A program made the position numbers and the translations under genes. Under the pieces are notes generated by a model, which did not search any database, was not told the DNA's origin, and worked only from the letters and a program-made list of their open reading frames with translations. A stretch of 64,000 nt of DNA, taken from assembly GCA_937868765.1 (NCBI GenBank), contig CALMNL010000007.1, positions 124,001-188,000 on the forward strand, in the 5' to 3' direction. Each line of letters opens with the position of its first letter. The stretch's first letter is position 1. Below are positions 13,246-35,488 of the stretch, piece by piece. Source of the stretch: an uncultured Desulfatitalea sp. GTDB lineage: Bacteria; Desulfobacterota; Desulfobacteria; Desulfobacterales; Desulfosarcinaceae.

Positions 13246-14559
13246 CTATCCGAAAAACGTGGTCGGGAGCCAGGTGGCGATCTGCGGAAAGAACATGACC
13301 AGCAGCATGCCCGTGGTTTCCATGATGGTGAAAGGAATCACCGAGCGGTAAATATCGCCCATGGTGATCGACGGCGGCACGATGGCCTTGAGGTAGAAAA
13401 GGTTGAAGCCGAAGGGCGGCGTCATGTAGCCGATGTTCATGTTCATGATGAAGAGAATGCCGAACCAGAGGGGGTCGAAACCGTGGGCCTTGATCACGGG
13501 CAGAAAGACCGGGATGGTGATCATCATGATGCCGGCCGGATCGAGCACCATGCCCAGCACCAGCAGCAGGAGTTGAATGAAGATGATGGTCCCCCATTTG
13601 CCGCCGGGTACATACTGCATGAGGGTTTCGATGAGCTGGGTGCCGCCCATGCTGTGATAGGCGGCGGTGAAACAATAGGCCCCGAAGAGAATCCACATGA
13701 TCATGCCGGTCAGGCGGAAGGTTCGCAGGCTGGCCTCCCATAAAAGTGGCCACGTCAACCGACGGTAAACGGCCGCCGAGACCAGCGACCCCAACAGGCC
13801 CACGGCCGCGGCCTCGGTCGGCGTGGTGATGCCGAAGACGATGGAACCGAGCACGGCGAAGACGATGCACACCGGCAGGATCACGGCCTTGAGGGCCTTG
13901 AGTTTGCGCGGCCAGTCGCCGCGCTCTTCAGCAGGCAGCGCGGGGGCCAGGTGCGGCTGGAAAAAGCAGCGGATGAGCACATAGCTGGAAACGATGGTGA
14001 GCAGCAGCAGTCCGGGCAACACGCCGCCGGCGAACATGCGGCCCACCGACTCGCCGGTGATGAGGCAGTAGAGAATCATGATGACGCTGGGCGGGATGAG
14101 AATGCCCCACCCGCCGCCGGAATTGATGCAGCCCACGGCCATGAGCTTGTCGTATTTGCGTTCGAGCATGGAGGGCAGGGCGATGGCGCCCATGCTGACC
14201 ACGGCGGCGCCGCTGATGCCGCACATGGCGGAAAAGATGGCGCAGATCACCAGCGTGCCCACCACCAGGCCGCCGCGCACCGGTCCGAACCACAGGTACA
14301 TCATCTCGTACAGATCGTTGGCCGTGCCCGACTTCTCCAGAATCATGGCCATGAAAATGAACAAGGGAATGGCCACCAGAGTAAATTTCTCCATGGCCCC
14401 CCAGGTCTGGGCCGCCACCATGTAAAAGGCCTCCGGGCCCCAGGTGGCATAGAGGAAGATGATCGACACGCCGCCCAGGGTGAACGACAGCGGCAGGCCG
14501 AGAAGCAGGAAAAGGAACAGCGATAAGAAGAAAAGCAGGGTCAGGATTTCGATGCTCAC
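13246..14559 (-). CDS. dctM: TRAP transporter large permease, DctM type
   Basis: 437 residues from the GTG at 14559, which overlaps the stop of dctQ (GTGA). The sequence is almost entirely hydrophobic with about 12 membrane helices and the DctM family stretches SGTANDLYEMMYLWFGPVRGG, CGISGAAVVSMGAIALPSML and GCINSGGGWGILIPPSVIMILY. An open frame continues upstream, but that part is the out-of-frame reading of dctQ. It forms the ion-coupled transport channel with DctQ; substrate is delivered by DctP. Confidence 0.93.
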   Translation of the reverse strand: MSIEILTLLFFLSLFLFLLLGLPLSFTLGGVSIIFLYATWGPEAFYMVAAQTWGAMEKFTLVAIPLFIFMAMILEKSGTANDLYEMMYLWFGPVRGGLVVGTLVICAIFSAMCGISGAAVVSMGAIALPSMLERKYDKLMAVGCINSGGGWGILIPPSVIMILYCLITGESVGRMFAGGVLPGLLLLTIVSSYVLIRCFFQPHLAPALPAEERGDWPRKLKALKAVILPVCIVFAVLGSIVFGITTPTEAAAVGLLGSLVSAAVYRRLTWPLLWEASLRTFRLTGMIMWILFGAYCFTAAYHSMGGTQLIETLMQYVPGGKWGTIIFIQLLLLVLGMVLDPAGIMMITIPVFLPVIKAHGFDPLWFGILFIMNMNIGYMTPPFGFNLFYLKAIVPPSITMGDIYRSVIPFTIMETTGMLLVMFFPQIATWLPTTFFG

Positions 14560-15098
14560 AGTGTCTCCCTTTCTTTTGAAGCATGACGATCGCTCGATTC
14601 CCCCGTCACCAGCACCAGGATGTCCCGGATCAGTTTGGCCGTTCCCTGCAGGATCAGCAGGAGCGCGCCCAGGGGGATCATCAATTTGAAAGGATAGACC
14701 GGTGGGTTCCAGGCCGACTGGGAACGCTCCCAGGTGACCAGCGACTCCCAGGCCAGTTGCCCGCCGTAGATGAAGAGCATGCCGCAGAACAGGAGAAAGA
14801 CGACGTAGGTGATGATGTCCAGAACCGCTTTGGAACGGGTGGAGAGCCGCGAGTAGAGGATGTCCACGTTGACGTGGCCGTTGGACTTGAGGATGTGTCC
14901 GCCCGAGAGGATCACGTAGGCCCCGAAGATCAGCTGGGTCGCCTCGGTTCCCCATACCGTGGGGGCGTTGAAGAAGTAACGGCGGATCACTTCCGACAAG
15001 ACCAGCAGGAACATGGCGAAGATCGAAAGGGCCAGGATGCGGCCGGTCCATTCGTTCACTTGATCGATGGCGTGAAGCAGAACATGCAGAAATTTCAA
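14556..15098 (-). CDS. dctQ: TRAP transporter small permease, DctQ type
   Basis: 180 residues with four predicted membrane helices (ILALSIFAMFLLVLSEV, TQLIFGAYVILSGGHIL, AVLDIITYVVFLLFCGMLFIYGG, FKLMIPLGALLLILQG) and the family's RRYFFN and HVNVDILYSRLS motifs. It is the small membrane partner of DctM. The gene overlaps dctM and follows dctP after a 174-base gap that carries a stem-loop. Confidence 0.9.
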   Translation of the reverse strand: MKFLHVLLHAIDQVNEWTGRILALSIFAMFLLVLSEVIRRYFFNAPTVWGTEATQLIFGAYVILSGGHILKSNGHVNVDILYSRLSTRSKAVLDIITYVVFLLFCGMLFIYGGQLAWESLVTWERSQSAWNPPVYPFKLMIPLGALLLILQGTAKLIRDILVLVTGESSDRHASKERETL

Positions 15099-15164
15099 AC
15101 GTCGCCTCCCGCAAGATGGGGGTCAGGCTTCATGCCCCCCAGGTTTTATGGTTCCTGCCAAACG

Positions 15165-15206
15165 CCGGAGGCCGTGAGGAAAAGAAGGTTCCTCACGACT
15201 TCCGGT
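15165..15206 (-). promoter_or_regulatory. Stem-loop between dctP and dctQ
   Basis: CGTGAGGAA (15173-15181) pairs perfectly with TTCCTCACG (15189-15197), extended by outer CCGGA/TCCGG pairing. It has no following T-run, so a transcript-stabilising or attenuating hairpin that raises binding-protein expression over the permeases is more likely than a full terminator. Confidence 0.5.
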
Positions 15207-15272
15207 CGAGGGTTGAGGGATGATTGGCCGGGGCAAGCCGACGAAGGCCGGACCCTGGGCCGGCTTCCAGCA

Positions 15273-16313
15273 CTAACGGCCCAACGAGGCCTGGAAATCC
15301 TTGAGCATCTGAACCGCTTTGGCGCAATCGGGGCTGCGCTTGGCCACCTCGTCCCAGGTGACCAGGGCGGCGGCCTTCATCTTCTGGACATCTGCGGCGG
15401 GCAGCTGGATCAGTTCCACGCCCTTTTCTTTTCGCACCTTGGCCAGGGTGACCTCCTCCAGGTACTGGTACTGGTTGGTGCGCAGCCAGAAATGTTCGTC
15501 CAGGGTGGCTTTCAATATGTCGCGGACATCGGCGGGCAGGGCATCCATGGCCTTTTGGTTGATCAGCCAGATGTCGGTCTGGGCCACGTTGAGGGCCGGA
15601 CGCAGGTGGTATTTGTTGACTTCATAAAAACCCATGCTGTCGCTGCCCTGCACCGCGCCCCAGTGTGCGCCTTCCACCACGCCCGAACTCAGGGCGGCAT
15701 AGATTTCACTGCCGGGCAGCTGGCTGGCAGCGGCGCCCAGGGAGGTGAGATAGACCTGCAGGATGCCCGAGGAGCGTAGCTTCATGCCTTTGAAATCTTC
15801 GAATTTCCGGATCGGCTTCTTCAGCGACAGCTCGGTGGGATAGACCTTGTCGGCCGAGTAGTAGAGACCGTGTTCGGCAAAAGCCTTCTGAACCATGGCA
15901 TCGAAGCCGAGCCACTTGTTGAAGTAGACGCATTCCCAGGTCTCCTGGAAATTCATGGGCAGCCCGGAGGCCACATCCATCAGCGGCACCTGATCCCGGG
16001 GATAGGCCGAAGAGGTGCCCACGATCTGGATCATGCCCCGTTTGGCGGCATTGAAGAGCTCCTTGGAGGGGACCAGGGCGTCGGCCGGGAAGAGTTCTAT
16101 CTCCAGACGACCGTTGGTGCGTTCTTTGAGCTTTTTGACCAGTACCTGGGCGCTGTCGGCATATGATGAGCTGGAGGCCGGCCAATGGGTCTGCATTTTC
16201 CATTTGATGACCGTGTCGGCCGCCAGAACGCTGCCAGGGACGGACCAGACGACAATTGCCGAAAAGATCGTGAGAAGGAACAGCCCGCGCGAAAACCAAG
16301 TTTTACCCTTCAT
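15273..16313 (-). CDS. dctP: TRAP transporter substrate-binding protein, DctP type
   Basis: 346 residues from ATG 16313 with a strong AGGAGG seven bases upstream. A Sec signal peptide (SRGLFLLTIFSAIVVWSVPGSVLA) precedes the mature domain starting ADTVIKWKMQTHWPASSSSYADS. Family signatures include FKGMKLRSSG (substrate-carboxylate Arg), AALSSGVVEGAHWGAVQGSDSMGFYEV and DIWLINQKAMDALP. The WKMQTHWP and EGAHWG stretches resemble oxo-acid/lactate-type binders, which fits the neighbouring hydroxyacid oxidase; the ligand remains an inference. It acts in the periplasm. Confidence 0.9.
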   Translation of the reverse strand: MKGKTWFSRGLFLLTIFSAIVVWSVPGSVLAADTVIKWKMQTHWPASSSSYADSAQVLVKKLKERTNGRLEIELFPADALVPSKELFNAAKRGMIQIVGTSSAYPRDQVPLMDVASGLPMNFQETWECVYFNKWLGFDAMVQKAFAEHGLYYSADKVYPTELSLKKPIRKFEDFKGMKLRSSGILQVYLTSLGAAASQLPGSEIYAALSSGVVEGAHWGAVQGSDSMGFYEVNKYHLRPALNVAQTDIWLINQKAMDALPADVRDILKATLDEHFWLRTNQYQYLEEVTLAKVRKEKGVELIQLPAADVQKMKAAALVTWDEVAKRSPDCAKAVQMLKDFQASLGR

Positions 16314-16356
16314 ATCCAATCCTCCTATCGCTGTTGAATGAGTTTGCATGGAAACA

Positions 16357-16386
16357 CCGTCTCGCTCCAAGAGGTGAGCGAGACGG
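16357..16386 (-). promoter_or_regulatory. Perfect hairpin in the dctP leader
   Basis: CCGTCTCGCTC (16357-16367) is complementary to GAGCGAGACGG (16376-16386), 11 perfect pairs around an 8-base loop. It lies between the proposed dctP promoter and the dctP ribosome-binding site and lacks a T-run. It could act as an mRNA structure or, as DNA, as an operator palindrome for the nearby IclR-type regulator. Confidence 0.5.
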
Positions 16387-16440
16387 CTCCCCTTGATCAC
16401 GACGGAAGCGAACGAAAATGGCGCACCGGTAAGTGCCATC

Positions 16441-16469
16441 ACTATGGCAGAGCGCCGCACGGGTGTCAA
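16441..16469 (-). promoter_or_regulatory. Sigma-70 promoter for dctPQM
   Basis: On the minus strand TTGACA (16469-16464), a 17-base spacer and CATAGT (16446-16441). It predicts a start near 16434 and a leader of about 120 bases before dctP. Confidence 0.5.
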
Positions 16470-16665: not shown

Positions 16666-18747
16666 TCACGCCACATTCACCCGCTTGTCGGGGTTGTAGC
16701 AGATCCGGCAGCAGTTCAGGCAGCGGTTCGATTCGTAGGCCGCATCTTTCTCACTGATCACCTGGTCCACTTCGATCATACTGGTGATGCGTTCGGCCAC
16801 ATGCAACTCGGGCATGGGAGTGCGGGCTTTCTTTACGACGCCGGGAACGGTCTTGAAAAGGGACTCGGCAATGTGTTTTTTGCGCAGGGACATCTGAGAT
16901 GTCTGCACCGGCTGACCGGTCAAAAACTGATGGATCGAACGGGCGGCCCGGCGGCCGCCGCCGATGGCGTCCACCACCAGCGAAGGTCCGGTGGCCGCGT
17001 CGCCTGCCGTAAACAGATAAGGCAGGCTGGTCTGAAGCAGTTCCGGGTCGTTGTCGTAGGTATTCCAGCGCGTGATGGCCGGTCTGTCTTCTTTGGTTTC
17101 CTGGTTCAGGCAGGCCTGGTCGGGCTGCTGGCCGATGGCCGAGATGACCATGTCTACGGCCAGAATGGTTTCGGAACCCTCCACGGGAACCGGACGGCGT
17201 CTGCCGCTGGCGTCGGGCTCGCCCAACTCCATCTTGAGATATTCCAGGCCCACCACGCGGCCCTGGGCATCGGCCACCACCCGTTTGGGGGCTGCCAGGA
17301 ATTGGAATTGGATGCCCTCGTGCTCGGCAGCCACGATTTCCACTTCATTGGCCGGCATCTCTTTGCGCGTGCGGCGGTAGACGATCCAGACCTCTTCGGC
17401 CCCCAGGCGTTTGAGGGTGCGCACGCAGTCGATGGCCGAGTTGCCGCCGCCGACCACGGCGCAACGTTTGCCGATGGGTATTTTTTTGTCCGGAGAGCCG
17501 GCCACCTGGGAGAGGAATTCGATGCCTTTCCAACAGCCCTTTTGATCTTCGCCGGGCACGCCGATGGCCAGGTCCTTCCAGGCCCCGATGCCCAGGAAGA
17601 TGGCCTCGTACCCCTCATCCCGCAGGGATTTGAGGGTGAAGTCACGGCCGAGGCGCTGGTTGAGGCGCGCTTCGATGCCCAGGTCCAAAATGCCCTGAAT
17701 CTCCCAGTCGAGTACTTCGTCTGGCAGGCGGTATTCGGGAATGCCATAGCGCGTAATGCCGCCCAACTTGGGCATGGCTTCGAAGATGGTCACATTGTGA
17801 CCCAGACGGCGCAGGAAGTAGGCGCAGCTCACGCCGGCCGGGCCGCCGCCGACCACGGCCACTTTCCTGCCGGTGTCCGGTGCGCAGGGAGTGGGCAGGC
17901 GCCGGCCCGAGTTCATCTCCCAGTCGGCCACGAAGCGCTTGAGCTGGTTGATGGAGACCGGTTCGTCTTCGATACCCCGGCGGCAGTAGTTTTCACAGGG
18001 GTGGGGGCAGACCCGGCCGCAGGTGAGCAGCAGGGGATTGCGCTCGCGGATGGTGTTCACCGCACCGGCGTAATCTCCCTTGCGGATCTGGTCGATATAC
18101 TGGGGAATATTGATTTCCGCCGGACAGGTCTGCTGGCAGGGGGCCAGTGCGTCGTCCAGTTCGTTGAAATGCAGCAGGCGCTGGCTCATGGTGCGCACGG
18201 TGAGGATGTTCTTGGGGCAGGCCCGTTCGCAGGCCCCGCAACCCACGCATTTGGCCTCGTCCACCACCGGGTAGCCCTCGGAGCCCATGTGGATCGCGTC
18301 GAACTTGCACGAACGGATGCAGTCGCCCATACCCAGGCAGCCCACCGAACAGACCCGACGGCCGCCGTGCAGGTTGGCCAGCGCCGCGCAGGTTTGAGCG
18401 CCGTCGTAGAAATATTTATCCGCCGCCCGAAACCCGCCGGAGCAACTGTTCATTGAGCGCAGGGCTTCGGCGGAACCGGCCGATACACCCATGACCGCCG
18501 CAATCTTCTGGGCCGACTCGGGGCCGCCCACGATGCAGACGCTGGGCGCCGCTTTGCCGGCCACCACGGCCGCCGCCGCGGCCGAGCAACCGGCATAGCC
18601 GCACCCGCCGCAGTTGGCACCGGCGGTATAGTACTCCACTTCGGAGATGCGCGGATCTTCCCAGACATAGAACACCTTGGATGCCACACTCAGCAATATA
18701 CCGCAGGCGGCACCGATGAACATCATCACCAATACGGCTTCAATCAC
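16666..18747 (-). CDS. rnfB: RnfB fused to a GltD/NfnB-like NAD(P)H oxidoreductase
   Basis: 693 residues from GTG 18747 (GGGAG upstream). Residues 1-~205 are a normal RnfB: N-terminal membrane helix, the four-Cys cluster CGGCGYAGC...C, then CSVGCLGMGDCIRSC and CVGCGACERACP ferredoxin sites. The remainder (~490 residues) is a glutamate-synthase small-subunit-type flavoprotein: CQQTCPAEINIPQYI and CGRVCPHPCENYC for Fe-S clusters, FAD site VAVVGGGPAGVSCAYFLRRLG, NAD(P) site CAVVGGGNSAIDCVRTLKRLGAEEV with YRRTRKEMPA, and the C-terminal FAD motif FTAGDAATGPSLVVDAIGGGRRAA. RnfB normally receives or gives electrons to soluble ferredoxin; the fusion should add a second nucleotide entry/exit. Last gene of the rnf operon. 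Confidence 0.92.
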   Translation of the reverse strand: MIEAVLVMMFIGAACGILLSVASKVFYVWEDPRISEVEYYTAGANCGGCGYAGCSAAAAAVVAGKAAPSVCIVGGPESAQKIAAVMGVSAGSAEALRSMNSCSGGFRAADKYFYDGAQTCAALANLHGGRRVCSVGCLGMGDCIRSCKFDAIHMGSEGYPVVDEAKCVGCGACERACPKNILTVRTMSQRLLHFNELDDALAPCQQTCPAEINIPQYIDQIRKGDYAGAVNTIRERNPLLLTCGRVCPHPCENYCRRGIEDEPVSINQLKRFVADWEMNSGRRLPTPCAPDTGRKVAVVGGGPAGVSCAYFLRRLGHNVTIFEAMPKLGGITRYGIPEYRLPDEVLDWEIQGILDLGIEARLNQRLGRDFTLKSLRDEGYEAIFLGIGAWKDLAIGVPGEDQKGCWKGIEFLSQVAGSPDKKIPIGKRCAVVGGGNSAIDCVRTLKRLGAEEVWIVYRRTRKEMPANEVEIVAAEHEGIQFQFLAAPKRVVADAQGRVVGLEYLKMELGEPDASGRRRPVPVEGSETILAVDMVISAIGQQPDQACLNQETKEDRPAITRWNTYDNDPELLQTSLPYLFTAGDAATGPSLVVDAIGGGRRAARSIHQFLTGQPVQTSQMSLRKKHIAESLFKTVPGVVKKARTPMPELHVAERITSMIEVDQVISEKDAAYESNRCLNCCRICYNPDKRVNVA

Positions 18748-18897: not shown

Positions 18898-19473
18898 TCA
18901 GACCATGCCCTTGAAGGCGAAAAAAGTCAACGACAGCAAGCCTGCGGTGATCAATCCGATGGAGGTATCCAGCAACGGCTTGGGCACTCGTGCCAGCAGG
19001 ATGCGCTCCCGCACACCGGCGAACAGGATCAATGCGAGTGAGAAACCGGCCGCATAGGCGAAAGAGGAAACCAGTGATTCTACGAAGGTATACTCTTCCT
19101 TGATGTTGATCAGGCAGACGCCCATCACGGCGCAGTTGGTGGTGATCAGGGGCAGAAAAATTCCCAGGCCGGCATAGAGTGCAGGAATGCTTTTCTTGAG
19201 GAACATTTCCACGAATTGTACCAGCGCCGCGATAAGCAGAATGAAAACGATGGTCTGCAAGAAAACCAGGTCGTATTTGATGAGAATGAATTTGTTGGCG
19301 ATCCAGGTGAGCGCACCGGCCATGACCAGAACGAAGATAACGGCCATGCCCATGCCGATGGCGGTCTCCATTTTTTTGGAGGTGCCCAGGAAGGGGCAGT
19401 TGCCGAGATATTGGGCCAGCAAAATATTGTTGATCAGAATGCAACTGATGATCAGAACGAAGTAGTCGCCCAT
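18898..19473 (-). CDS. rnfA: Rnf complex membrane subunit RnfA
   Basis: 191 residues, standard length, with six predicted membrane helices. Hallmarks are NNILLAQYLGNCPFLGTSKK and ITTNCAVMGVCLIN, whose cysteines (with those of RnfE) hold the intramembrane iron-sulfur centre in Rnf/Nqr complexes. It sits nine bases after rnfE. Confidence 0.96.
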   Translation of the reverse strand: MGDYFVLIISCILINNILLAQYLGNCPFLGTSKKMETAIGMGMAVIFVLVMAGALTWIANKFILIKYDLVFLQTIVFILLIAALVQFVEMFLKKSIPALYAGLGIFLPLITTNCAVMGVCLINIKEEYTFVESLVSSFAYAAGFSLALILFAGVRERILLARVPKPLLDTSIGLITAGLLSLTFFAFKGMV

Positions 19474-19482
19474 GGTATCTCC

Positions 19483-20088
19483 TTATTTCTTTCCCAACAA
19501 GTTCATGACGCAAAGCATCAGGCCGAGACAGACGAAGGCGCCCGGCGCTTCCACCATGAAGGCAAACGGAACGAAGGCATCGCTCATGACGTGAATCGGT
19601 TTTTCCCAGATGGTTATGAATCCGGTGCCGAAGATCTCCCGGATCGCTCCCAGGGCCGATAACGAGAGGGTGAAGCCGATGCCCATGCCGAGGCCGTCGA
19701 AGATGGACGGAATCACACCGTTCTTGTAGGCAAAAGCCTCGGCGCGGCCGAGCAGGATGCAGTTCACCACGATCAGGGGGATGAAGATGCCCAGCTTCAG
19801 GAAGAGCGGGTAGGCGAACTTCTGCATCGCCAGTTCCACGATGGTCACGAAGGTGGCGATGATGATGATGAAGGCCGCGATGCGCACTTTACCGGGGATC
19901 AATTTGCGACATACGGAAACCAGAATGTTGGAGCAGACCAGCACGAAGGTGAGGGCTGCGCCCATGCCGATGCCGTTTTCCACTGTTTTGGTCAGAGCCA
20001 GGGTCGGGCATAGACCCAAGACCAGTCTGAACGGCGGAATTTCCTTCCATAAGCCTTTGGTGAATTCCTGGACAAGCGACTTAGCCAT
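19483..20088 (-). CDS. rnfE: Rnf complex membrane subunit RnfE
   Basis: 201 residues, homologous to RnfA and predicted to be inverted relative to it in the membrane. Family motifs are LVLGLCPTLALTKTVENGIGMG and IPLIVVNCILLGRAEAFA, each carrying a conserved cysteine for the shared membrane Fe-S site. ATG 20088 has GGGAGC upstream. Operon position between rnfG and rnfA is the usual one. Confidence 0.96.
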   Translation of the reverse strand: MAKSLVQEFTKGLWKEIPPFRLVLGLCPTLALTKTVENGIGMGAALTFVLVCSNILVSVCRKLIPGKVRIAAFIIIIATFVTIVELAMQKFAYPLFLKLGIFIPLIVVNCILLGRAEAFAYKNGVIPSIFDGLGMGIGFTLSLSALGAIREIFGTGFITIWEKPIHVMSDAFVPFAFMVEAPGAFVCLGLMLCVMNLLGKK

Positions 20089-20102: not shown

Positions 20103-20693
20103 CTATTGAATGCTTTTGAGTTTTTCGAGGATCTGCGGCTTCAGGGCCTTGTAGATATTGCCGCCTTCGGTCACCCCCTGGGCCACGCCGCGGGAAGTGA
20201 CCGTGGCGCCGCTGAGGGCATCGATTTGCCCGCCGTCATTCTTCACCTTCATGGGTTCCAGCAGACTCTTGCCCTTGAACTGATCCGTAAACGCCGCATC
20301 GGACTTGGCCCGGGACCCCAGGCCGGGCGTTTCGGAGTGGGTGGTGACGCCAACCCCTAAGATCTTATCGGTTTCCGGGTCGACACCGATCATGATGCCG
20401 ATGTCGCCGCCGAAGCCTTTACCGGTGCTTTCGAAGGCCACTACTTTTTTGCCGTTCTCCAGGCCGACGAAAAAGTTGCGTTCTTCCTTGGTGCCGGGAT
20501 TGAGTTTGAACCTTTTTTCGGTGGGGTCGTTGCTGACATCGGGGAGAACTGCCATGATGGCAGGGCCTTTAACGAATTTGAGCTGCTGCTTTTCGATATC
20601 TTCCTGCCAATTCTGCCGCAGCGCCGCCAACCCCCCACCCGAGAGGACGCTCAGAATCGTCAAAACCACGACCATCTTGATCATCTCTTTCAT
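20103..20693 (-). CDS. rnfG: Rnf complex FMN-binding subunit RnfG
   Basis: 196 residues: one N-terminal membrane helix (IKMVVVLTILSVLSGGGLAAL) and an extracytoplasmic FMN-binding domain. The covalent flavin site SGATVTS is intact near residue 163, and GVGVTTHSETPGLGSRA matches the family. Flavin is attached to the Thr by ApbE, which is not in the window. The gene starts one base after the rnfD stop. Confidence 0.95.
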   Translation of the reverse strand: MKEMIKMVVVLTILSVLSGGGLAALRQNWQEDIEKQQLKFVKGPAIMAVLPDVSNDPTEKRFKLNPGTKEERNFFVGLENGKKVVAFESTGKGFGGDIGIMIGVDPETDKILGVGVTTHSETPGLGSRAKSDAAFTDQFKGKSLLEPMKVKNDGGQIDALSGATVTSRGVAQGVTEGGNIYKALKPQILEKLKSIQ

Positions 20694-20694
20694 C

Positions 20695-21654
20695 TTACGC
20701 TGCCTTTCCTAATGCCTTGGGTCTGATTTTGTCCAGCAGGGGATTGATCAGGTTGATTACCAGAATGGCGTAGATTACGCCGTCGGGGTAAGCACCGATA
20801 TTGCGGATCAGCATGGTCATGAGGCCGCCCATGGCGCCGTAGAGCAGCATGGGAATCGCGTTCACCGGTGAACTGCTGTCTTCGGGAGCCAGGAAGAATG
20901 CACCCAACAAGGTATAACCGGCCACCAGATGGAAGATCGGACCGGCATACCGGCTGGGGTCGACAATGTGGAAGATGCCGGCGGTGATGAACAGCCCGGC
21001 AATGAAGGCCAGCGGTATTTCCCAACGGACAAATCCCCGGGCGATCAGGTAGACGCCGCCGACGATGATGGCCAATCCGGATACGGCGCCGATGCCGCCG
21101 ATCTGATGCCCGATCAACAGATCCCCCAGGTTCAATTGGGAGATGGCGTCGGGTCCGAAGGCCTTCAGGGCCACCAGCGGATTAAACGCCGGAAAGGCGA
21201 AGTCGATATTGAGCAACTGGGCATCGATGTCGAAGTAGTTTTTCCATGAAATCCGCACGATGGCATAGGCGAGCACCGCCGGATTGAACGGATTGCCGCC
21301 GATGCCGCCGAAAATCTGCTTTCCGATCAGAATGGCCACGAAGGTGCCGGTGATCACCAGCCACCAGGTGGCCGTGGCGGGCAGCAGCATGCCGAACAGC
21401 AGGCCGATGAGGGCCGCGTTGCCGTCGCCCACCGTGTTGGGCCGCTTGGAAAGCCGGGTGATCAGGAGTTCCCACCCCACGGCGCTGGAAACCGACAGAC
21501 AGATCACCGCCAGGGCCGGCACACCAAATACCGAGATGCCCATGAGCACGGCGGGAAGGGCTGCGATGATGGTGTTGTAGTGCCGTTCGGGCACCGCGCT
21601 GCCGATGTGCCAGAAAGGCGCATGGGAGACCAGTAGCTTTTTCGCGTTATTCAT
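20695..21654 (-). CDS. rnfD: Rnf complex membrane subunit RnfD
   Basis: 319 residues from ATG 21654, which has GGAGG upstream and overlaps the rnfC stop. It is a polytopic membrane protein with the family motifs GDGNAALIGLLFGMLLP and GGNPFNPAVLAYAI. The region that normally reads SGATPL before a Leu/Lys-rich helix here reads PAFNPLVALK, so the Thr used for covalent FMN attachment appears to be absent. Length and flanking segments are otherwise normal. Confidence 0.93.
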   Translation of the reverse strand: MNNAKKLLVSHAPFWHIGSAVPERHYNTIIAALPAVLMGISVFGVPALAVICLSVSSAVGWELLITRLSKRPNTVGDGNAALIGLLFGMLLPATATWWLVITGTFVAILIGKQIFGGIGGNPFNPAVLAYAIVRISWKNYFDIDAQLLNIDFAFPAFNPLVALKAFGPDAISQLNLGDLLIGHQIGGIGAVSGLAIIVGGVYLIARGFVRWEIPLAFIAGLFITAGIFHIVDPSRYAGPIFHLVAGYTLLGAFFLAPEDSSSPVNAIPMLLYGAMGGLMTMLIRNIGAYPDGVIYAILVINLINPLLDKIRPKALGKAA

Positions 21655-22933
21655 TTGCTTCCTCCGCCGGGACGGTGCGCGCAAGTTCATACTTAGCCAG
21701 CTTTATGTACTGGAGGATCGGCATGCGGGAGACGCAGACCATGCTGCACAATCCGCATTCAACACACGAGTAGAGATCGTAAAGATCGGCGCCTTCCTGA
21801 TACTGGCCGGCTTCCAGGAAGCGCACCAGCATGTTGACGGCGATATGGGACGGACAGATGCGGACGCATTCGCCGCAGTTGATGCAAGGGTAATCGCTGC
21901 TGAGGATGATCTCCGCGGCCGCCTGCACCATGATCGCGTCGGTGTCGGCCTGCACGGGCTGTTCCTCCGAATAAACCGCCGTGCCGGTCATGGGGCCGCC
22001 GAAGATCAGGCGGTCTCGGTCTTCCAAGGTGATGCCCAGGGTCTGCAGAATGCTGCCGATGGGGGTGCCGATGCGCGCCGAAACCATGTGTTTGTTGCCC
22101 TGCTTGTCCAGGACGGTGAGCACCTTTTCGACGGCTACCTGGCGGCTGGCGACGGCCGCGCCGATGGCGGCCACCGCTTCGGCGCGCATGAAAAGCACGC
22201 CCTGGTTTTCGAAGGATTGCCCTTGGTTCAGGATTCGACCGAAGATCTGATAGAACAGCATCAGCGGCTGGGCCGAGGGGTAGCTGTTGGGAACCGACCT
22301 CACGTCGGCGGCGAAGTGGCCGTCGAAGTTCTGGAAGCTTTCACCGGGAACCGCCAGGATGATCTTCTCGATGCCGGTGGCCTCTTTCAATACGTGGATG
22401 CCTTTTTCCACTGCGTCGGTACGGGTTTTGAGCACGTAAAGATTGCTGTCCACCAAAAGGTCGGTATCGCCGCCGTATATGACTATGGTATCGATGGGCT
22501 TTTGGGGGCTCACCAGCTTGGCCAGCGGAGGTGCTCCGGGCGCGCCGGAGAGATAATCCGCCAGGGTCGCCAGATTGATCTGCCCGCAGGCTTGTGCGAA
22601 GGCACCGTCCCATTCGTCGCGGTTCTCGGTAGCGATGGTGATGGCGGTGTACTTGCGCCCATAGTCGCCCAACTGGGGGGCCACCGCGCTGATTTTGCCG
22701 GTAAAGGAGGAGATGACGGAAGGTCCCGGGCCGTCGTCCCAGGTGAGGCGCTGGCCGGTCAGCACACGCGTCCCCACTTTCAGCTTGGTCGAGGGGGCGG
22801 GCCCTATCTCCCTGGGCAGCAGCAGGGTCGCCTGGGCCGGTCGGGGAACGGTCACCGGCCGTGGAAATGCGGTGCTCAACAGTTCGTAGCTGAACTTGGG
22901 CTTGGCATAGCCAAAAACAGGTTTGGATAGCAT
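21647..22933 (-). CDS. rnfC: Rnf complex peripheral subunit RnfC
   Basis: 428 residues. An N-terminal barrel-like domain, then the NADH/FMN-binding part (PIDTIVIYGGDTDLLVDSNLYVLK, IGTPIGSILQTLGI, FGGPMTGTAVYSEEQPV), then two ferredoxin sites CINCGECVRICP and CVECGLCSMVC. RnfC is the NADH-oxidising/reducing subunit on the cytoplasmic face. It is somewhat shorter than proteobacterial RnfC with long Ala-rich tails and resembles the compact anaerobe type. The glycine-rich nucleotide loop is less canonical than in NADH-specific forms. Confidence 0.94.
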   Translation of the reverse strand: MLSKPVFGYAKPKFSYELLSTAFPRPVTVPRPAQATLLLPREIGPAPSTKLKVGTRVLTGQRLTWDDGPGPSVISSFTGKISAVAPQLGDYGRKYTAITIATENRDEWDGAFAQACGQINLATLADYLSGAPGAPPLAKLVSPQKPIDTIVIYGGDTDLLVDSNLYVLKTRTDAVEKGIHVLKEATGIEKIILAVPGESFQNFDGHFAADVRSVPNSYPSAQPLMLFYQIFGRILNQGQSFENQGVLFMRAEAVAAIGAAVASRQVAVEKVLTVLDKQGNKHMVSARIGTPIGSILQTLGITLEDRDRLIFGGPMTGTAVYSEEQPVQADTDAIMVQAAAEIILSSDYPCINCGECVRICPSHIAVNMLVRFLEAGQYQEGADLYDLYSCVECGLCSMVCVSRMPILQYIKLAKYELARTVPAEEANE

Positions 22934-23016: not shown

Positions 23017-23466
23017 CTAAAGTACATGACACTTGGAGCAATTGTTCGATCCGGATTGAGGCCCTTTGCCGAACTCTTCGTGGCATCCGATGCACTGCTT
23101 ATGAAAAGCGTCCGAGCGTTTCATGATGTCAGGCTTTTCGATTTCGGCGGCATCCGCGTGACAATCCAGACACGATTCAGGAATCTGGGCGCCTTGGGGC
23201 CGCGGTGGGTGGCACACGCCGCAGGAGACCGGTTCGATCTCCTCGCCGCCGTGCAGATGATGGCAGTCGGTGCAGGCCAAGGCGTAGCCCTTGACGGTGG
23301 CATGCATCTGGTGGTCAAAGAGGACCTTGCCGGCATTGGTCTGGTACATCAGGCGGATCGGCTCCTCGGGGGTTGGAACCGGGAAGGCGGCGTAGCAGAC
23401 AATCGCCACCACCAGGAGCTGGACCGATACGGCGTACACGATCAGTCGGTGCTTCTTTGAAATCAT
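23017..23466 (-). CDS. Membrane-anchored pentaheme c-type cytochrome
   Basis: 149 residues from ATG 23466 (AAGGAAC upstream). A single N-terminal helix (LIVYAVSVQLLVVAIVCYAAF) acts as signal or anchor. Five CxxCH heme sites are present: CTDCH, CGVCH, CLDCH, CIGCH and CSKCH, with extra His residues in the class III (cytochrome c3-like) spacing. It precedes rnfC by 83 bases and is likely the first gene of the rnf operon, as seen for multiheme cytochromes next to rnf in Desulfovibrio and Methanosarcina. It probably links the Rnf complex to periplasmic electron carriers. Confidence 0.88.
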   Translation of the reverse strand: MISKKHRLIVYAVSVQLLVVAIVCYAAFPVPTPEEPIRLMYQTNAGKVLFDHQMHATVKGYALACTDCHHLHGGEEIEPVSCGVCHPPRPQGAQIPESCLDCHADAAEIEKPDIMKRSDAFHKQCIGCHEEFGKGPQSGSNNCSKCHVL

Positions 23467-23726
23467 CTGCACTAGTTCCTTATTATGATGGTATGGAGTC
23501 CCACATGACGCTGAAAAAACCAAGGCACCGGACTAACATAAGGGTTTTTTGCTTTCAAGCATTTTGTTCCATTTTAAATGAAATAATTGAAACAAAAGGT
23601 AAAATCGCTTATTAAACCGCTTGCCGGAAAGCGCCTGGGAGATGCCGGCGCGCAGGGCTGTCGGGTTGGAAAGAAGAGCGCCCCCGTTGCCGCCGGACCA
23701 AAACATGTGCCTGAAAGGAATGAGAG

Positions 23727-24329: not shown

Positions 24330-25412
24330 TCACCCTTCCGAGAGGCCATTGCGCAACAGGGATCGCAGCGATTCGATCTGGGGGGCGGACGCCTCGATGC
24401 CGGCTTGATGGAGCAGGTGGCGAATGCCGGTGCTGCCCGAATGGCTGCCCAGGGCCAGGCGGCGGCTGCGGCCGATGCTTTCGGGGGCGAAGGGTTCGTA
24501 GGCCTGGGGTTCGCGGAGCAGGGCGTGGCAATGAGTCCCCGATTCGTGGGTGAAGCACATGTCGCCCACGATGGGGCGGTCCGGCGCGATGGGGCGGCCG
24601 CTGACCAGGGCGGTGCGCCGGCAGAGGGCGAGCAGCCCGCCGGGATCGAGGCCGCAGGCCAGGCGCGGGTGTCGGCCGAGAAGCATGGCGAGCTGCTCCA
24701 GGGAGGCATTGCCGGCCCTTTCGCCCAGGCCGTTGACGGTCACGCTGAGGGCGGCGGCGCCGGCTTCGGCGGCGGCCAGGGCATTGGCCGTGGCCAGTCC
24801 CAGGTCGTTGTGGCCGTGGAACTCCAAAGGCAGATCAGGGGCGACCTGGCGGCAGAGGGTCACCAGTCGCGAAATCGTGTCCGGTCGGCCGATACCCACG
24901 GTGTCGGCCAGGCGCAGCCGCTGAACCCCGGCCTGGGCTGCCGCTCGGACGAACTGCAAGAGCCATGGTGCCTCGGCGCGGGTGGCGTCCAGGGCGCCGA
25001 CGCTGACCTGGGCGAAGCGCACCCGGGCCTCGGGCACCAGGTTGCGCAGCTGCTCCAACACCCAGGCGCGGCCCTTGTTCAAGGCGCGCAGCTGGATCTG
25101 CGATACCGGCAGGCTGATGTGCACACCGAACACCCCGCAGCGCGATGCGGCCGCCAAGTCTTCGGGGCGTGCCCGGCACCAGGCGCTGAGCCGGCACTTG
25201 AGCCCCAGGCCGGCGATGCGGGCCATGTCTTCTTCCTCGACCGCTCCCATGGCTGGTGTGCCCACCTCCAGTTCGTCGATGCCCAGGGCATCCAGCTCGC
25301 GGGCAATGGCCAGCTTGTCGGCGGTCTTGAAGACGACCCCCGGCGCCTGGGCGCCGTCCCGCAGGGTGGTGTCGTTGAGCCGCACAGCTCGTTTGGGATG
25401 GGGCGGGTCCAA
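24330..25412 (-). CDS. nifV: Homocitrate synthase NifV
   Basis: About 360 residues. Conserved motifs: LNDTTLRDGAQAPGV (metal and substrate), EVGTPAMG, LRLADTVGIGRP, FHGHNDLGLATANALAA and VNGLGERAGNASLEQLA. It makes the homocitrate needed for the FeMo-cofactor from 2-oxoglutarate and acetyl-CoA. The open frame extends upstream but reads the acetyltransferase gene out of frame, so the start is near 25412, where TTG follows AAGG at a workable spacing; a GTG slightly downstream is the alternative. It is the last gene of the nif operon. Confidence 0.9.
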   Translation of the reverse strand: MDPPHPKRAVRLNDTTLRDGAQAPGVVFKTADKLAIARELDALGIDELEVGTPAMGAVEEEDMARIAGLGLKCRLSAWCRARPEDLAAASRCGVFGVHISLPVSQIQLRALNKGRAWVLEQLRNLVPEARVRFAQVSVGALDATRAEAPWLLQFVRAAAQAGVQRLRLADTVGIGRPDTISRLVTLCRQVAPDLPLEFHGHNDLGLATANALAAAEAGAAALSVTVNGLGERAGNASLEQLAMLLGRHPRLACGLDPGGLLALCRRTALVSGRPIAPDRPIVGDMCFTHESGTHCHALLREPQAYEPFAPESIGRSRRLALGSHSGSTGIRHLLHQAGIEASAPQIESLRSLLRNGLSEG

Positions 25413-25417
25413 GTGCT

Positions 25418-25903
25418 TCAGCCTTTTGTGCAGCGTGATCGGCTGCCTGCAGTCTGCTTCCTGCGCAGACAGATCAAGCGCGTCGGTCGCCAGCCGATGT
25501 GGTCGTAGAAATCCAATGCCGAAAAATTGGTGCGATCGGCCAGCAGTTGCAGACGGGTGGCGCCGTGCGTCCAGGCCCACGCTTCGAGGGCATCCACCAG
25601 CTGGCGGCCGATGCCCTGGCCCCGCCATGGGGGATCGACGATGATATCTTCCACCAGGGCCACCGGCCCGCCCTCGGCGGTGGAGATCAGCAGCTGGGCC
25701 GTGCCCATGCCGACGACTCCGCCTTCGGCCTCGGCCGCTTTTACGCAGCGGTGCTTGCCGCAACCGTCGATCATCAGGGCCAGACCGCGGCGGTGGCGCT
25801 CAACATCGATGGTGAAATCGGTTTCGATGGCAAACAGCTGGGCGAGCAGCGCCGCCAGTGCCGGAATGTCTTCGTGCCTCGCATTTCGGATGGTTGCCGG
25901 CAT
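25418..25903 (-). CDS. GNAT-family N-acetyltransferase in nif operon
   Basis: 161 residues. The acetyl-CoA binding loop is visible as DPPWRGQGIGRQLVDALEAWA, preceded by the strand VALVEDIIV and followed by TNFSALDFYDHIGW. GNAT proteins accompany nif genes in several anaerobes without known role; it may acetylate a nif-related protein or a small molecule. Only five bases separate it from nifV. Confidence 0.87.
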   Translation of the reverse strand: MPATIRNARHEDIPALAALLAQLFAIETDFTIDVERHRRGLALMIDGCGKHRCVKAAEAEGGVVGMGTAQLLISTAEGGPVALVEDIIVDPPWRGQGIGRQLVDALEAWAWTHGATRLQLLADRTNFSALDFYDHIGWRPTRLICLRRKQTAGSRSRCTKG

Positions 25904-25934
25904 ATTTTTCTCCTCCGGCCGCGCCGGAGCAATG

Positions 25935-26240
25935 CTATTGAATCAAATAACTCTCCGCGGAGCCGTTGTCTTCGATGGCGTCCAGGATTTCATCCACGAC
26001 CCCTTCGCTCGCCACCTTGCCATACCAATGCCCCTGGGGCTGGACCACCATCACCGGACCGTGATCGCACGCCTTGAGGCAACCGGTGCTGGTGATCTGG
26101 GCATCCAGGCCGCGGTCGAGGATTTCGTTTTCGATATAAGGCAGCAGGGCCACGGAACCCTTTTTGTGGCAGGCCCCTTTGGGGTCGCCGTCGGCCCGGA
26201 AACTGGCGCAGACGAAGATGTGGTACTTGGGTTTCTCCAT
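25935..26240 (-). CDS. Thioredoxin-like [2Fe-2S] ferredoxin
   Basis: 101 residues with four cysteines in the thioredoxin-like ferredoxin pattern: C11 (HIFVCASF), C24 (GACHKKG), C54 and C58 (STGCLKACDHGP). This type is common in nif clusters of Clostridium, Azotobacter and anaerobes and probably donates electrons to, or protects, nitrogenase. The gene lies between nifB and the GNAT gene; its ATG has AAGGAG upstream. Confidence 0.92.
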   Translation of the reverse strand: MEKPKYHIFVCASFRADGDPKGACHKKGSVALLPYIENEILDRGLDAQITSTGCLKACDHGPVMVVQPQGHWYGKVASEGVVDEILDAIEDNGSAESYLIQ

Positions 26241-26266
26241 GTTCTTCTCCTTTGATTTAATGTTGT

Positions 26267-26284
26267 AACCTAAAACCTAAAACC
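26267..26284. repeat. CCTAAAAC-type intergenic repeat, copy 1
   Basis: AACCTAAAACCTAAAACC lies in the nifB-ferredoxin gap. Related tracts occur in the nifN-nifB and nifK-nifE gaps of the same operon. Confidence 0.55.
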
Positions 26285-26292
26285 GATTATTC

Positions 26293-27570
26293 TTACGCCC
26301 CGCATCCCAGCATGTCGCCGCCACAGGATAGGCCGCAGGCCCTGGGTTTGCGCACGGCCATGGCGCTCAGGCTTTCGCCGGCATATACCCGGCGCACGGC
26401 TTCTTCGATGAGCCCCTCGCAGAGGCCCACTACCACGCCGCTGTCGGCCAGCACCTTGCGGGGATTTTCGCCGGCACCCGAGGTCAGCAGCATGCGGCAG
26501 TCGCTCAGCCGCTGGGCCAATTGCTGCCAACGTTCGAGGCCGCCGCCGGCTTCAGGCGCGGGTCGGGCTTCGACTATCCGGACCAGTCCCTGGCGCTGTT
26601 CGTAAATCAGAAACTTCCGGGCCTCTCCAAGATGCTGGTTGACCAGCGCTCCCTCCATGGAGGCCACCGCCACGTAGGGCCTGATGGGGACGGCTTCTCC
26701 CGTTGCGGGCGGCTCGGCCAGGTGCTGGCAGCTGTTCAGGAGCTGCATGAGCTTGGTCGATGGCGCCTCTCCCAGCAGTCCCACGGCGTCGGCCCGGCAG
26801 CGGGTGCAGTGGCTCATCTGCGGGAGGTGCTGACCCGCCTGTTTGCGGATGGCCGTCACGGTGGCGCTGTCCGGCTCGGTCAGGTGCTCGAAGGCGCTGC
26901 CCTTGTTCGGATAATAGGGCATGCAATTGAAGAGATCCGCTCCCATAACGGCCATGGCCCTGGCGATCTCGACGACGTGATCGTCATTGATGCCCGGCAG
27001 TACGATGGCATTGATTTTGACCAGGATGCCTCTGCGTTTGAGGGCGGCGATCGCGTCCATCTGGCGTTCGAGCAGGATCCCCGCCCCCTCTGCGGGGGAG
27101 ACCACCCGTTTGCCGATGCGCATCCAGCTGTAGATTTTAGCGCCGATTCTGGGGGCCACGGCATTGACCGTGATGGTGACGTGGCTGACTCGCAGGCGCT
27201 GCAGGACGTCGATGTAAGGCCCGATGGCCAGGCCGTTGCTGGCCACACAGAGCATCATATCGGGATAAGAGCGGCGTACCCGCTCGAAAGTCTCCAGGGT
27301 CTGTGCGGCATTGGCGAAGGGGTCCCCGGGGCCGGCGATGCCCACCACCTTGATATGCGGTTTTTCTTTGAGCACTTCGGCCAGGTAGACCATGGCCTGG
27401 GCCGGAGACAACACCGCGCTGGTGACCCCCGGCCGGCTCTCGTTGGCGCAGTCGAAGAGCCGGTTGCAGAACTTGCACTGGATGTTGCAGCGCGGCGCCA
27501 CCGGCAGGTGGATGCGGCCATATTTATGATGGCTCTTGCGGTTGAAGCAGGGGTGTTGTTCCAGGTTCAT
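26293..27570 (-). CDS. nifB: FeMo-cofactor biosynthesis radical SAM protein NifB
   Basis: 425 residues from ATG 27570 (MNLEQHPCFN). The radical SAM core shows CNIQCKFCNR, with the neighbouring HPCFN and GVTSAVLSPAQA blocks typical of NifB, and CTRCRADAVGLLGE. From about residue 300 a NifX/NafY-type domain follows (VAVASMEGALVNQHLGEARKFLIYE). The tail GLSCGGDMLGCGA carries two extra cysteines. NifB fuses two [4Fe-4S] clusters with carbide and sulfide into NifB-co. The two-domain form is the usual bacterial one. Confidence 0.96.
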   Translation of the reverse strand: MNLEQHPCFNRKSHHKYGRIHLPVAPRCNIQCKFCNRLFDCANESRPGVTSAVLSPAQAMVYLAEVLKEKPHIKVVGIAGPGDPFANAAQTLETFERVRRSYPDMMLCVASNGLAIGPYIDVLQRLRVSHVTITVNAVAPRIGAKIYSWMRIGKRVVSPAEGAGILLERQMDAIAALKRRGILVKINAIVLPGINDDHVVEIARAMAVMGADLFNCMPYYPNKGSAFEHLTEPDSATVTAIRKQAGQHLPQMSHCTRCRADAVGLLGEAPSTKLMQLLNSCQHLAEPPATGEAVPIRPYVAVASMEGALVNQHLGEARKFLIYEQRQGLVRIVEARPAPEAGGGLERWQQLAQRLSDCRMLLTSGAGENPRKVLADSGVVVGLCEGLIEEAVRRVYAGESLSAMAVRKPRACGLSCGGDMLGCGA

Positions 27571-27674
27571 TTTACCACCGCCTTTTTTCTGCTCATTAAA
27601 ATCTTCAGTCTTCCAGTCTTTGCTCGCTTTCGTCCCCGCAAGCTTTTTCTCAATCCAAAGACGCCCTTCCACCA

Positions 27675-27700
27675 CCTAATACCTAAAACTTAAAACCTGA
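27675..27700. repeat. CCTAAAAC-type intergenic repeat, copy 2
   Basis: CCTAATACCTAAAACTTAAAACCTGA-like tract in the nifN-nifB gap, between the nifN stop and the upstream part of the nifB leader. Confidence 0.5.
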
Positions 27701-27705
27701 AATGG

Positions 27706-30482: not shown

Positions 30483-30498
30483 GGTCAAATACCTCGCC

Positions 30499-30605
30499 TT
30501 TAGGTTTTAAGTTGAGGTTTGGGGTCTATTGGAGTGCAGGTGTTTGGTTCAGCTATTTCAGATGGAAGCCTACCGACACTTAATCCCTAAAACTTAAAAC
30601 CTAAA
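30499..30605. repeat. 15-bp perfect inverted repeat in nifK-nifE gap
   Basis: TTTAGGTTTTAAGTT (30499-30513) and its exact complement AACTTAAAACCTAAA (30591-30605) flank 77 bases. They belong to the same repeat family as the tracts at 26267 and 27675. In RNA they could form a long-loop hairpin between the structural genes and nifEN. Confidence 0.6.
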
Positions 30606-30612
30606 ACCTCTT

Positions 30613-31992: not shown

Positions 31993-32052
31993 GGTACGTT
32001 ACTCCTCAAATTTCTGTTTGACTGGATTGCTTAATTTTGAGCTTGCTCGGTG

Positions 32053-33717: not shown

Positions 33718-33773
33718 GGCAGTTCTCCTTGTTTGAAATCGGTAGATGACAACACGCAAACAAACAGGTTCAA

Positions 33774-34154
33774 TCAACCATCATCGAGTACCGCATCCCC
33801 ATGTTGTCCGGTCCGTACCCGGAAGCCGTCCATACAGGGCATCACGAAGATCATGCCGTCGCCGGGCTTGCCGGTCTGGTTGACGCGGATCAATGTCTGA
33901 ACGGCCTTCTCCACCAGATCGTCCTGTACCACCATGACCAGGAATCGCTTGGGGATCAGCCGCTGGCTCTGTCCCAACTGGGAGATGGCTTCCTCGTATC
34001 CCCGCTCGGCCCCTTTGAGCAGCTGCAGATCCACCAGACCTTTGCCCCTTCCCAAGCAGTCGCGGGCCGTGATCGACGGCAGTCCCACTTCGGCCAGGGC
34101 CCTTTTGGTCTGATTCATGCGGTTGAGCCGCACAATCGCCAGAATTTCTTTCAT
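33774..34154 (-). CDS. nifI2: PII-family nitrogenase regulator NifI2
   Basis: 126 residues of the NifI2 (GlnB-like) branch: MKEILAIVRLNRMNQTKRALAEVGLPSITARDCLGRGKG, a T-loop region with LLKGAERGYEEAISQLGQSQRLIPKR, and the C-terminal GKPGDGMIFVMPCMDGFRVRTGQ. NifI1-NifI2 complexes bind NifDK and switch it off when nitrogen is plentiful, relieved by 2-oxoglutarate. The start overlaps the nifI1 stop by four bases. Confidence 0.94.
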   Translation of the reverse strand: MKEILAIVRLNRMNQTKRALAEVGLPSITARDCLGRGKGLVDLQLLKGAERGYEEAISQLGQSQRLIPKRFLVMVVQDDLVEKAVQTLIRVNQTGKPGDGMIFVMPCMDGFRVRTGQHGDAVLDDG

Positions 34155-34507: not shown

Positions 34508-34552
34508 GATATGATTTCCTTTATCGGTAGGTTGATAGATTTGAATCTCTTC

Positions 34553-35488
<936 letters not shown>

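Follow-up and report, generated by a model that had tools for sequence, protein, structure and literature searches.

A variant of the Rnf complex from sulfate-reducing bacteria, the 'D. toluolica Tol2-type' or Rnf2, was described by Doerries et al. in 2016; it combines a large RnfB (~700 aa) with binding sites for nicotinamide adenine dinucleotide (NAD), an RnfC without NADH domain and a cytochrome encoded in the rnf2 cluster, and its mode of action 'awaits experimental verification' (PMC5109826; here and below, literature statements refer to excerpts of the cited papers). In Desulfobacteraceae, Rnf2 was assigned to the core genome, and its formation in abundance was reported for six strains (PMC11887813). 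We analyzed an rnfB gene fused to a GltD-type flavoprotein in a stretch of 64,000 nucleotides from an uncultured Desulfatitalea sp. (GenBank assembly GCA_937868765.1, contig CALMNL010000007.1, positions 124,001 to 188,000; hereafter the window). The window system is a member of the published Tol2-type: its RnfB of ~700 aa contains an NAD(P)-binding flavoprotein part, its RnfC lacks the NADH site and a cytochrome gene lies in the cluster. No difference from the Rnf2 of D. toluolica, D. multivorans and D. autotrophicum was seen, the assignment being based on the described features and not on direct comparison with the Tol2 sequence. Because Tol2-type Rnf is already in print for D. toluolica and D. 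multivorans, the fusion, which had been singled out in an earlier note on this DNA, is not new (PMC5109826, PMC11887813). The change in RnfD, the permutation, the ligand count and the ligand swap reported below were not found described in the excerpts of the literature on this type, which do not extend to the supplements; likewise, the excerpted main text of a 2025 RNF/NQR review contains neither 'Desulfo' nor 'fusion' or 'fused' (PMC12174285). We give roughly even chances to a half circuit, in which electrons run from NAD(P)H at RnfB via RnfA/E and RnfG to the periplasmic cytochrome and in which the return leg through RnfC has been dismantled.

With the canonical Rnf of A. woodii and C. tetanomorphum the system shares six subunits, the FdI and FdII domains of RnfB, the cysteines of RnfA/E and the flavin mononucleotide (FMN)-binding threonine of RnfG. 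However, the fusion has a flavoprotein after FdII where canonical RnfB has further ferredoxin domains, and two features of the canonical ferredoxin:NAD+ Rnf, the FMN/NADH motif of RnfC and the covalent-FMN threonine of RnfD, were lost in the window. The flavoprotein part resembles the large subunit of StnC/NfnABC in its GltD-type module for NADP(H) and flavin adenine dinucleotide (FAD) with both nucleotide motifs, in its apparently permuted order, in a C-terminal RCLxC and in the position of a lysine ligand, but it is joined to RnfB and not to a NuoG-like chain, and no StnAB bifurcating module occurs in the cluster. With NfnB (NfnL) of NfnAB it has fold and nucleotide motifs in common, whereas its Cys pair lies at the other end, Lys270 takes the place of the Glu ligand at the FAD-proximal cluster and the cluster encodes no NfnA. 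To our knowledge, the Rnf of Methanosarcina acetivorans is fed by ferredoxin and its RnfB carries no flavoprotein module. This complex likewise has a cytochrome c partner, with no use of NAD(P) reported (PMC4023990). Na+-NQR is similar in that NAD(P)H enters at the B/F position and RnfC/NqrA has no NADH site, but its input module is unrelated, RnfC retains its clusters and NqrB carries covalent FMN (PMC4348036).

In the window, RnfB and the GltD-type flavoprotein are joined in a single intact gene with the following features (numbering of the 693-aa protein):

16666..18747, minus strand: rnfB-gltD fusion, 693 aa (open reading frame, Pfam and NCBIfam matches; continuous in relatives)
18178..18747, minus strand: RnfB part with transmembrane helix, FdI (Cys46, 49, 54, 71), Cys102/Cys120 and FdII (Cys133-177)
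16669..18150, minus strand: StnC/NfnB/GltD-type flavoprotein part, residues 200-693
17833..17853, minus strand: FAD Rossmann motif VGGGPAG, residues 299-305
17428..17454, minus strand: NAD(P) Rossmann motif VGGGNSAID, residues 432-440
17938..17940, minus strand: Lys270, by column count opposite Lys170 of StnC, which ligates the FAD-proximal cluster
16699..16722, minus strand: C-terminal CLNCCRIC, residues 676-683, with the putative ligands Cys676/679 (permuted pair), Cys680 (swap ligand) and Cys683

The minus-strand frame is open from 18780 to 16666 and comprises 704 aa as a whole; the GTG at 18747, which is preceded by AGGGAG, is a reasonable choice of start and gives 693 aa. In the numbering of the 704-aa frame, Pfam analysis unveiled FeS (residues 54-83), Fer4, Fer4_20 and Pyr_redox_2 (residues 306-608; 109.5 bits for the protein) in one frame, and with NCBIfam, RnfB models covered residues 12-268 and GltD-type models residues 210-695. 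In the predicted model the transmembrane helix of the RnfB part spans residues 2-25. Among the matches listed from a search of 291 genomes of the order, nearly all relatives were full-length, in a single frame and without stops, and seven contained one or two stops; the tally of 287 for this search also counts matches to GltD alone. Furthermore, 19 aligned fusion proteins exhibited a mean column identity of 79%, unbroken across the junction near 18100. A frameshift or a sequencing or assembly artefact is very unlikely, because the frame runs on in the relatives and the alignment spans the junction. The claim of the earlier note that both parts lie in one frame without stop was thus confirmed by Pfam, NCBIfam and the relatives, and nothing was seen of the stop or frameshift near ~18100 that it had named as refuting. 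Its description as a complete GltD holds for the FAD/NAD(P)H-type module, which is present, but not for the first Cys pair: the Fer4_20 match covers profile positions 30-111 only, so that the opening NfnB/GltD pair is missing on the N-terminal side, and the matching segment lies at the C-terminus.

By sequence and by fold of the AlphaFold model of the fusion (predicted local distance difference test 86.9, predicted template modelling score 0.83), the best solved relatives of the module were the NfnABC large subunits (9bov, 9n5u) and StnC (8oh5), with NfnB, GltD and DPD ranking behind. StnC and NfnABC match the fusion profile collinearly to its end, and the N-terminal segment of NfnB that ends in RCLQC (4ylf_B 2-42, 5jca_L 6-45) matches the C-terminus of the fusion (profile 638-678); the latter short matches are weak (i-E-values of 0.59 and 0.31), both in the same register. 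This arrangement suggests that the module and NfnB differ by a circular permutation. Cys79/82 of DPD are presumably the pair that opens the first GltD cluster, and with the permuted segment at the C-terminus this pair would correspond to Cys676/Cys679 of the fusion. Lys270 was found in 103/103 unique fusions, a set obtained by removing L001 (the window copy) and the frame-broken L069 and then four duplicates (107 to 103). In StnC, Lys170 was seen to ligate the FAD-proximal cluster, a position taken by Glu in NfnB, and the FAD of StnC is described as non-bifurcating (PMC10482914). An NfnA partner ([2Fe-2S], second FAD) was absent from the cluster genes scanned, the rest of the genome not being searched for NfnA. 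A YRRT-type motif common to NADPH enzymes weakly favours NADPH over NADH.

Cys46, 49, 54 and 71 were present in 102/102 readable rows; Cys102 and Cys120, the eight cysteines of FdII (Cys133, 137, 143, 147, 167, 170, 173 and 177) and Cys204, 208, 247, 251, 255, 676, 679 and 683 were retained in all 103 fusions. Exactly one of Cys200 and Cys680 occurs in 102/103 fusions, both occurring in L245. The 23 cysteines and Lys270 add up to 24 ligands, which would fill six [4Fe-4S] clusters. Judged from conservation and covariation, these would be one cluster in FdI (Cys46, 49, 54, 71), two further clusters in FdII, a bridge cluster (Cys102, 120, 683 and either 200 or 680), GltD-1 (Cys204, 255, 676, 679) and GltD-2 (Cys208, 247, 251, Lys270). 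For the bridge, which is a proposal, the additional cluster in the RnfB of C. tetanomorphum served as model; there, two Cys before FdII and two after it hold the cluster (PMC9588780). In an alignment, Cys102 and Cys120 coincide with cysteines of 7zc6_B. On a tree calculated with both columns left out, position 200 changed four times and position 680 three times. The Cys200/Cys680 ligand swap is suggestive and not significant (p = 0.25), because three of the four independent pairs were opposite and one showed no difference.

The gene order of the cluster is cytochrome c, rnfC, D, G, E, A, B, with the fusion as the last gene. Upstream of the fusion the cluster comprises:

18898..19473, minus strand: rnfA, two conserved Cys (presumed [2Fe-2S] ligands) retained
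19483..20088, minus strand: rnfE, two conserved Cys (presumed [2Fe-2S] ligands) retained
20103..20693, minus strand: rnfG, FMN threonine in SGAT retained (Thr164)
20695..21690, minus strand: rnfD, Asn170 (codon 21181-21183) in place of the covalent-FMN threonine
21647..22933, minus strand: rnfC, without FMN/NADH motifs, eight cluster Cys retained
22514..22552, minus strand: degenerate FMN motif of RnfC, residues 128-140, LSGAPGAPPLAKL instead of GxGGAxFPxxVKL
22442..22477, minus strand: degenerate ECEP motif of RnfC, residues 153-164, YGGDTDLLVDSN
23017..23523, minus strand: gene at the head of the cluster, encoding a small multihaem cytochrome c with 5 CXXCH

The window RnfC aligns with the solved RnfC chains 8ahx, 9eri and 7zc6, but SGAPGAPPLAKL replaces their GxGGAxFPxxVKL, and the ECEP motif is lost (GGDTDLLVDSN versus, for example, GSECEPYLTCD of 8ahx). 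Its scores fell below the cut-offs both for Complex1_51K (27.1 bits, cut-off 31.2) and for the rnfC model (190 bits, cut-off 245.95). For comparison, rnf loci were collected by a scan of genome contigs (at least 80 loci), by the order search and by a phylum search (395 genomes, 144 matching), from the lists of which 100 further regions were chosen by hand, not at random. The counts refer to non-duplicate loci in which RnfC was no shorter than 380 aa and RnfD lay nearby, after the exclusion of 15 RnfC matches (13 without RnfD nearby, 2 short) and 21 duplicates. Both RnfC motifs were absent from all 52 loci with fused RnfB, none of which retained either motif. Short-RnfB loci had both motifs in 63 cases and lacked both in 18, two of which (L076, L154) are truncated at contig ends; loci without seen RnfB had the motifs in 5 cases and lacked them in 7. 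Wherever RnfC was intact and RnfB readable, the latter was short (63/63). Since RnfC decay occurs unfused in these 18 loci, it does not require the fusion. The proposal of the earlier note that NAD(P)H is exchanged at RnfB in addition to RnfC therefore fails, in the window as in 52/52 fused loci, and a second NADH site at RnfC was rejected. Among the matches, L175, L177-L183, L185, L218 and L221 encode RnfC-like proteins without rnfD nearby. L077 has a Tol2-like RnfC with a short RnfB upstream that adjoins a UspA-like gene, and in L083 a UspA-like gene follows the short RnfB (both by eye).

In A. woodii, FMN is bound to Thr156 of RnfD and to Thr185 of RnfG (PMC11889175). Counting along 9eri_D places Thr156 in TATPL, opposite Asn170 of the window. 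In the aligned column the threonine was found in 67/68 canonical loci (one gap) and in 7/52 fused loci, being absent from 45/52; SATDPL of L031 is ambiguous and was scored as not Thr. An ATPL-like pattern anywhere in RnfD (17/52 fused, 64/68 canonical) was considered too loose and the aligned column was used instead. At the riboflavin-site position Asp249, mapped by residue count, Asp occurs in 67/68 canonical loci (one gap), and the 52 fused loci have Glu in 43 and Asp in 9 cases. The RnfG position for FMN is Thr in 49/52 and Ser in 3/52 fused loci, and the motif of the window was matched to its counterpart in 8rb9_G by alignment. The motif is missing from eight of the 52 canonical RnfG rows, all of them short-flank loci that are presumably cut. 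Both conserved Cys of RnfA and of RnfE are present in 52/52 fused loci.

A tree of RnfA+D+E was calculated for 102 of the 145 loci, 17 loci lacking A, D or E and 30 of 56 canonical loci being drawn at random. The fused/short state changes once among the 96 rows with readable state, a count that omits rows without seen RnfB and two contig-end truncations and rises to six changes if all of these are scored as non-fused; intact/decayed RnfC changes twice. A single starred clade, made up of 65 loci with decayed RnfC, contains all 52 fused loci and, as a separate branch, eight short-RnfB loci. Because the single fusion lies within the decayed-RnfC clade, the loss of the RnfC site probably preceded it, the split of the eight from the rest having a support of 84 (not starred) on a tree whose root was not inferred. 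The second decay concerns a separate group of seven short-RnfB loci (L162, L164, L166, L168, L171, L184, L219) and is an independent, different loss of the NADH site: the RnfD FMN threonine is kept (8/8 with L176 added) and no multihaem gene was seen nearby. Among the 17 other non-fused RnfC-decayed loci, which are our own grouping and not all on the tree, the threonine occurs in one. The association of fusion and RnfC decay amounts to one independent pair (p = 1); the ratio of 52/52 reflects one event retained in the sampled descendants and not many independent events.

The fusions fall into two types. In type A, to which the FAD and NAD(P) motifs are common, both are highly conserved; type B is a sister group of 24 fusions without NAD(P) motif (35-42% identity, 16 compared), of which 17 have no rnf genes in the available DNA, partly short contigs, and 7 lie in rnf clusters. 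L234, assigned to type B by its motif, groups with type A. The genome of the window contains a type B paralogue (L114:5852-7900, minus strand, contig C3, 682 aa) with altered FAD motif, lost NAD(P) motif and no rnf genes within 16 kb; a phosphorylase-like gene adjoins it (by eye). Such a paralogue may serve as an alternative RnfB for the same complex. Next to the orphan type B fusion of L060 lie genes that by eye resemble a formate dehydrogenase-type chain and a 2Fe-2S/NuoG-like chain encoded on the opposite strand. A gene with at least three CXXCH motifs, inside the operon or within 3.5 kb of it, was found in 33/44 type A fused loci, in L035, in 4/7 fused loci typed B, in 8/18 loci with decayed RnfC and short RnfB, in 6/7 decayed loci without seen RnfB and in 1/68 canonical loci; 15 loci without match have less than 500 bp upstream. 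In the window the multihaem cytochrome gene heads the cluster (23017-23523), in agreement with the periplasmic cytochrome invoked in the earlier note. In L041, L043 and L245 the fused rnfB lies upstream of the cytochrome-rnfC genes and is not the last gene.

The comparison shows motifs, losses, conservation, gene order and tree; in the path proposed here, the occupancy by cofactors, the assignment of clusters, the preferred nucleotide, the direction, the pumping of ions and the cytochrome as partner are inferred. NAD(P)H would bind the FAD module on RnfB and deliver a hydride to the non-bifurcating FAD, from which single electrons would pass the six [4Fe-4S] clusters in the order FAD-proximal Cys3/Lys, second GltD cluster (completed by the CxxC at the C-terminus), bridge, two of FdII and the mobile FdI. 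They would then reach the [2Fe-2S] cluster of RnfA/E, the presumed site of Na+ movement, the FMN of RnfG and the periplasmic cytochrome c whose gene opens the operon. Being reversible, the path could also drive NAD(P)+ reduction, possibly coupled to Na+. The second leg from RnfG via RnfD-FMN and RnfC-FMN to NAD+ would be dismantled, with the FMN anchor of RnfD and the FMN/NADH site of RnfC lost. This half circuit is supported by Kumar et al. 2025, who placed the Na+ pump in RnfA/E and left RnfD with electron transfer only (PMC11889175), and by the Rnf of M. acetivorans, which reportedly passes electrons to cytochrome c without use of NAD(P) and ends at RnfG in the authors' model (PMC4023990). 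If Rnf2 as a half circuit still pumps Na+, the pump must lie in RnfA/E. The fuller claim, that Rnf2 keeps only the outward leg (RnfB, RnfA/E, RnfG) and abandoned the RnfD-FMN/RnfC-FMN leg, with a permuted StnC-like module, a Lys-ligated cluster and a bridge ligand from either side, falls somewhat short of an even chance.

Several points weigh against the half circuit. The main one is that the eight cluster Cys of RnfC are retained in 52/52 fused loci, which suggests that electrons still pass RnfC. Furthermore, RnfD might bind FMN non-covalently, and its aligned threonine persists in 7/52 fused loci. The Na+ translocation of C. tetanomorphum was assigned to RnfD by Vitt et al. (PMC9588780), and Rnf2 itself was drawn as a sodium pump linking NADH and ferredoxin in a 2025 paper (PMC11887813); biochemistry on the Rnf2 type was not found in the literature. 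As to the cytochrome, 11/44 type A fused loci have no such gene (among them L049, L051, L156-L159 and L161), two of these without upstream room. For D. multivorans, detection of the Rnf2 cytochrome was confined to cells grown on lactate, with a caution by the authors on detectability (PMC5109826), and mutants of D. alaskensis in the cytochrome gene before the rnf operon showed no fitness effect (PMC4841214).

The main rival, possible though on the unlikely side, is a conversion towards Na+-NQR, in which electrons from NAD(P)H enter at RnfB, loop via a remodelled RnfD with non-covalent flavin and the RnfC clusters and end at RnfC on a quinone or on some cytoplasmic acceptor. The retained RnfC cysteines fit this scheme, as does the literature: NQR is thought to have arisen in parallel, with NqrF replacing RnfB as NADH input (PMC12174285) and RnfC giving up its NAD and FMN sites on becoming NqrA (PMC4014512), and Doerries et al. 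expect another acceptor of RnfC (PMC5109826). However, the RnfD threonine is absent from 45/52 fused loci, the riboflavin-site Asp is changed to Glu in 43/52 and a cytochrome gene is linked in most type A loci (33/44). Improbable, in our view, is a ferredoxin that docks on FdII of RnfB, with the module as ferredoxin-NAD(P)+ exchanger on the pump. Ferredoxin is held to be the partner of short RnfBs that lack FdIII, which counts for this scheme. The eight FdII cysteines in 103/103 fusions and the reported link of Rnf2 to ferredoxin and NADH (PMC11887813) count for it as well. Against it, the docking site proposed for C. tetanomorphum is cluster 6, which of the FdII+III domain lies most distant from the membrane (PMC9588780); furthermore, FdII of the fusion is not followed by a second ferredoxin domain, and direct equilibration would short-circuit the two pools. 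The scheme corresponds to the three-way hub of ferredoxin, NAD(P)H and cytochrome in the earlier note without RnfC; of that hub, the FAD/NAD(P)H-type module on RnfB and the multihaem cytochrome gene stand, but the NADH site at RnfC does not.

Electron bifurcation or confurcation, with NADH at RnfC as second nucleotide site, had also been put forward in the earlier note. The fold family shared with NfnB speaks for it; the StnC-type order, Lys for Glu at the proximal cluster in 103/103 fusions and the non-bifurcating FAD of StnC (PMC10482914) make bifurcation unlikely, and with no NfnA-type partner among the cluster genes scanned and the RnfC site lost, the enzyme as then proposed is very improbable and was rejected. 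Scarcely credible is a flavin module in decay and without catalytic role. This seems true of the type B paralogues; the 24 type B fusions, including the one in the same genome, lost the NAD(P) motif, but the type A motifs are highly conserved and six strains are reported to form Rnf2 in abundance (PMC11887813).

Just upstream of the rnf genes, on the minus strand, lies a nif cluster (24330-35485: nifV-like, 2Fe-2S ferredoxin, nifB, nifE, nifK, nifD, nifH-like; nifD, nifH and nifV named by eye), as the earlier note had observed. Its suggestion of a nitrogenase link could not be upheld: nif genes were seen in 0 of the other 51 fused loci (27/52 fused loci hold at least 4 kb upstream), and with nif adjacency seen, among these loci, in the window only, a nitrogenase-specific role was rejected. 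The fusion is immediately followed on its own strand by genes resembling a tripartite ATP-independent periplasmic (TRAP) transporter (13246-16469, minus, by eye). The same genome contains an Na+-NQR-type operon (nqrA-E-like, by eye) at L111:6582-11257; its NqrB/RnfD match fell below the rnfD cut-off, and a second rnfD above the cut-off was not found in the genome.

The comparison yields specific claims, namely which nucleotide site would be live, which flavin would be missing and which residues would hold each cluster. If the half circuit is true, nature would already have separated the two halves of Rnf whose coupling roles are disputed, and if RnfD lacks flavin, Rnf2 would provide a natural test between a pump in RnfA/E (PMC11889175) and one in RnfD (PMC9588780).

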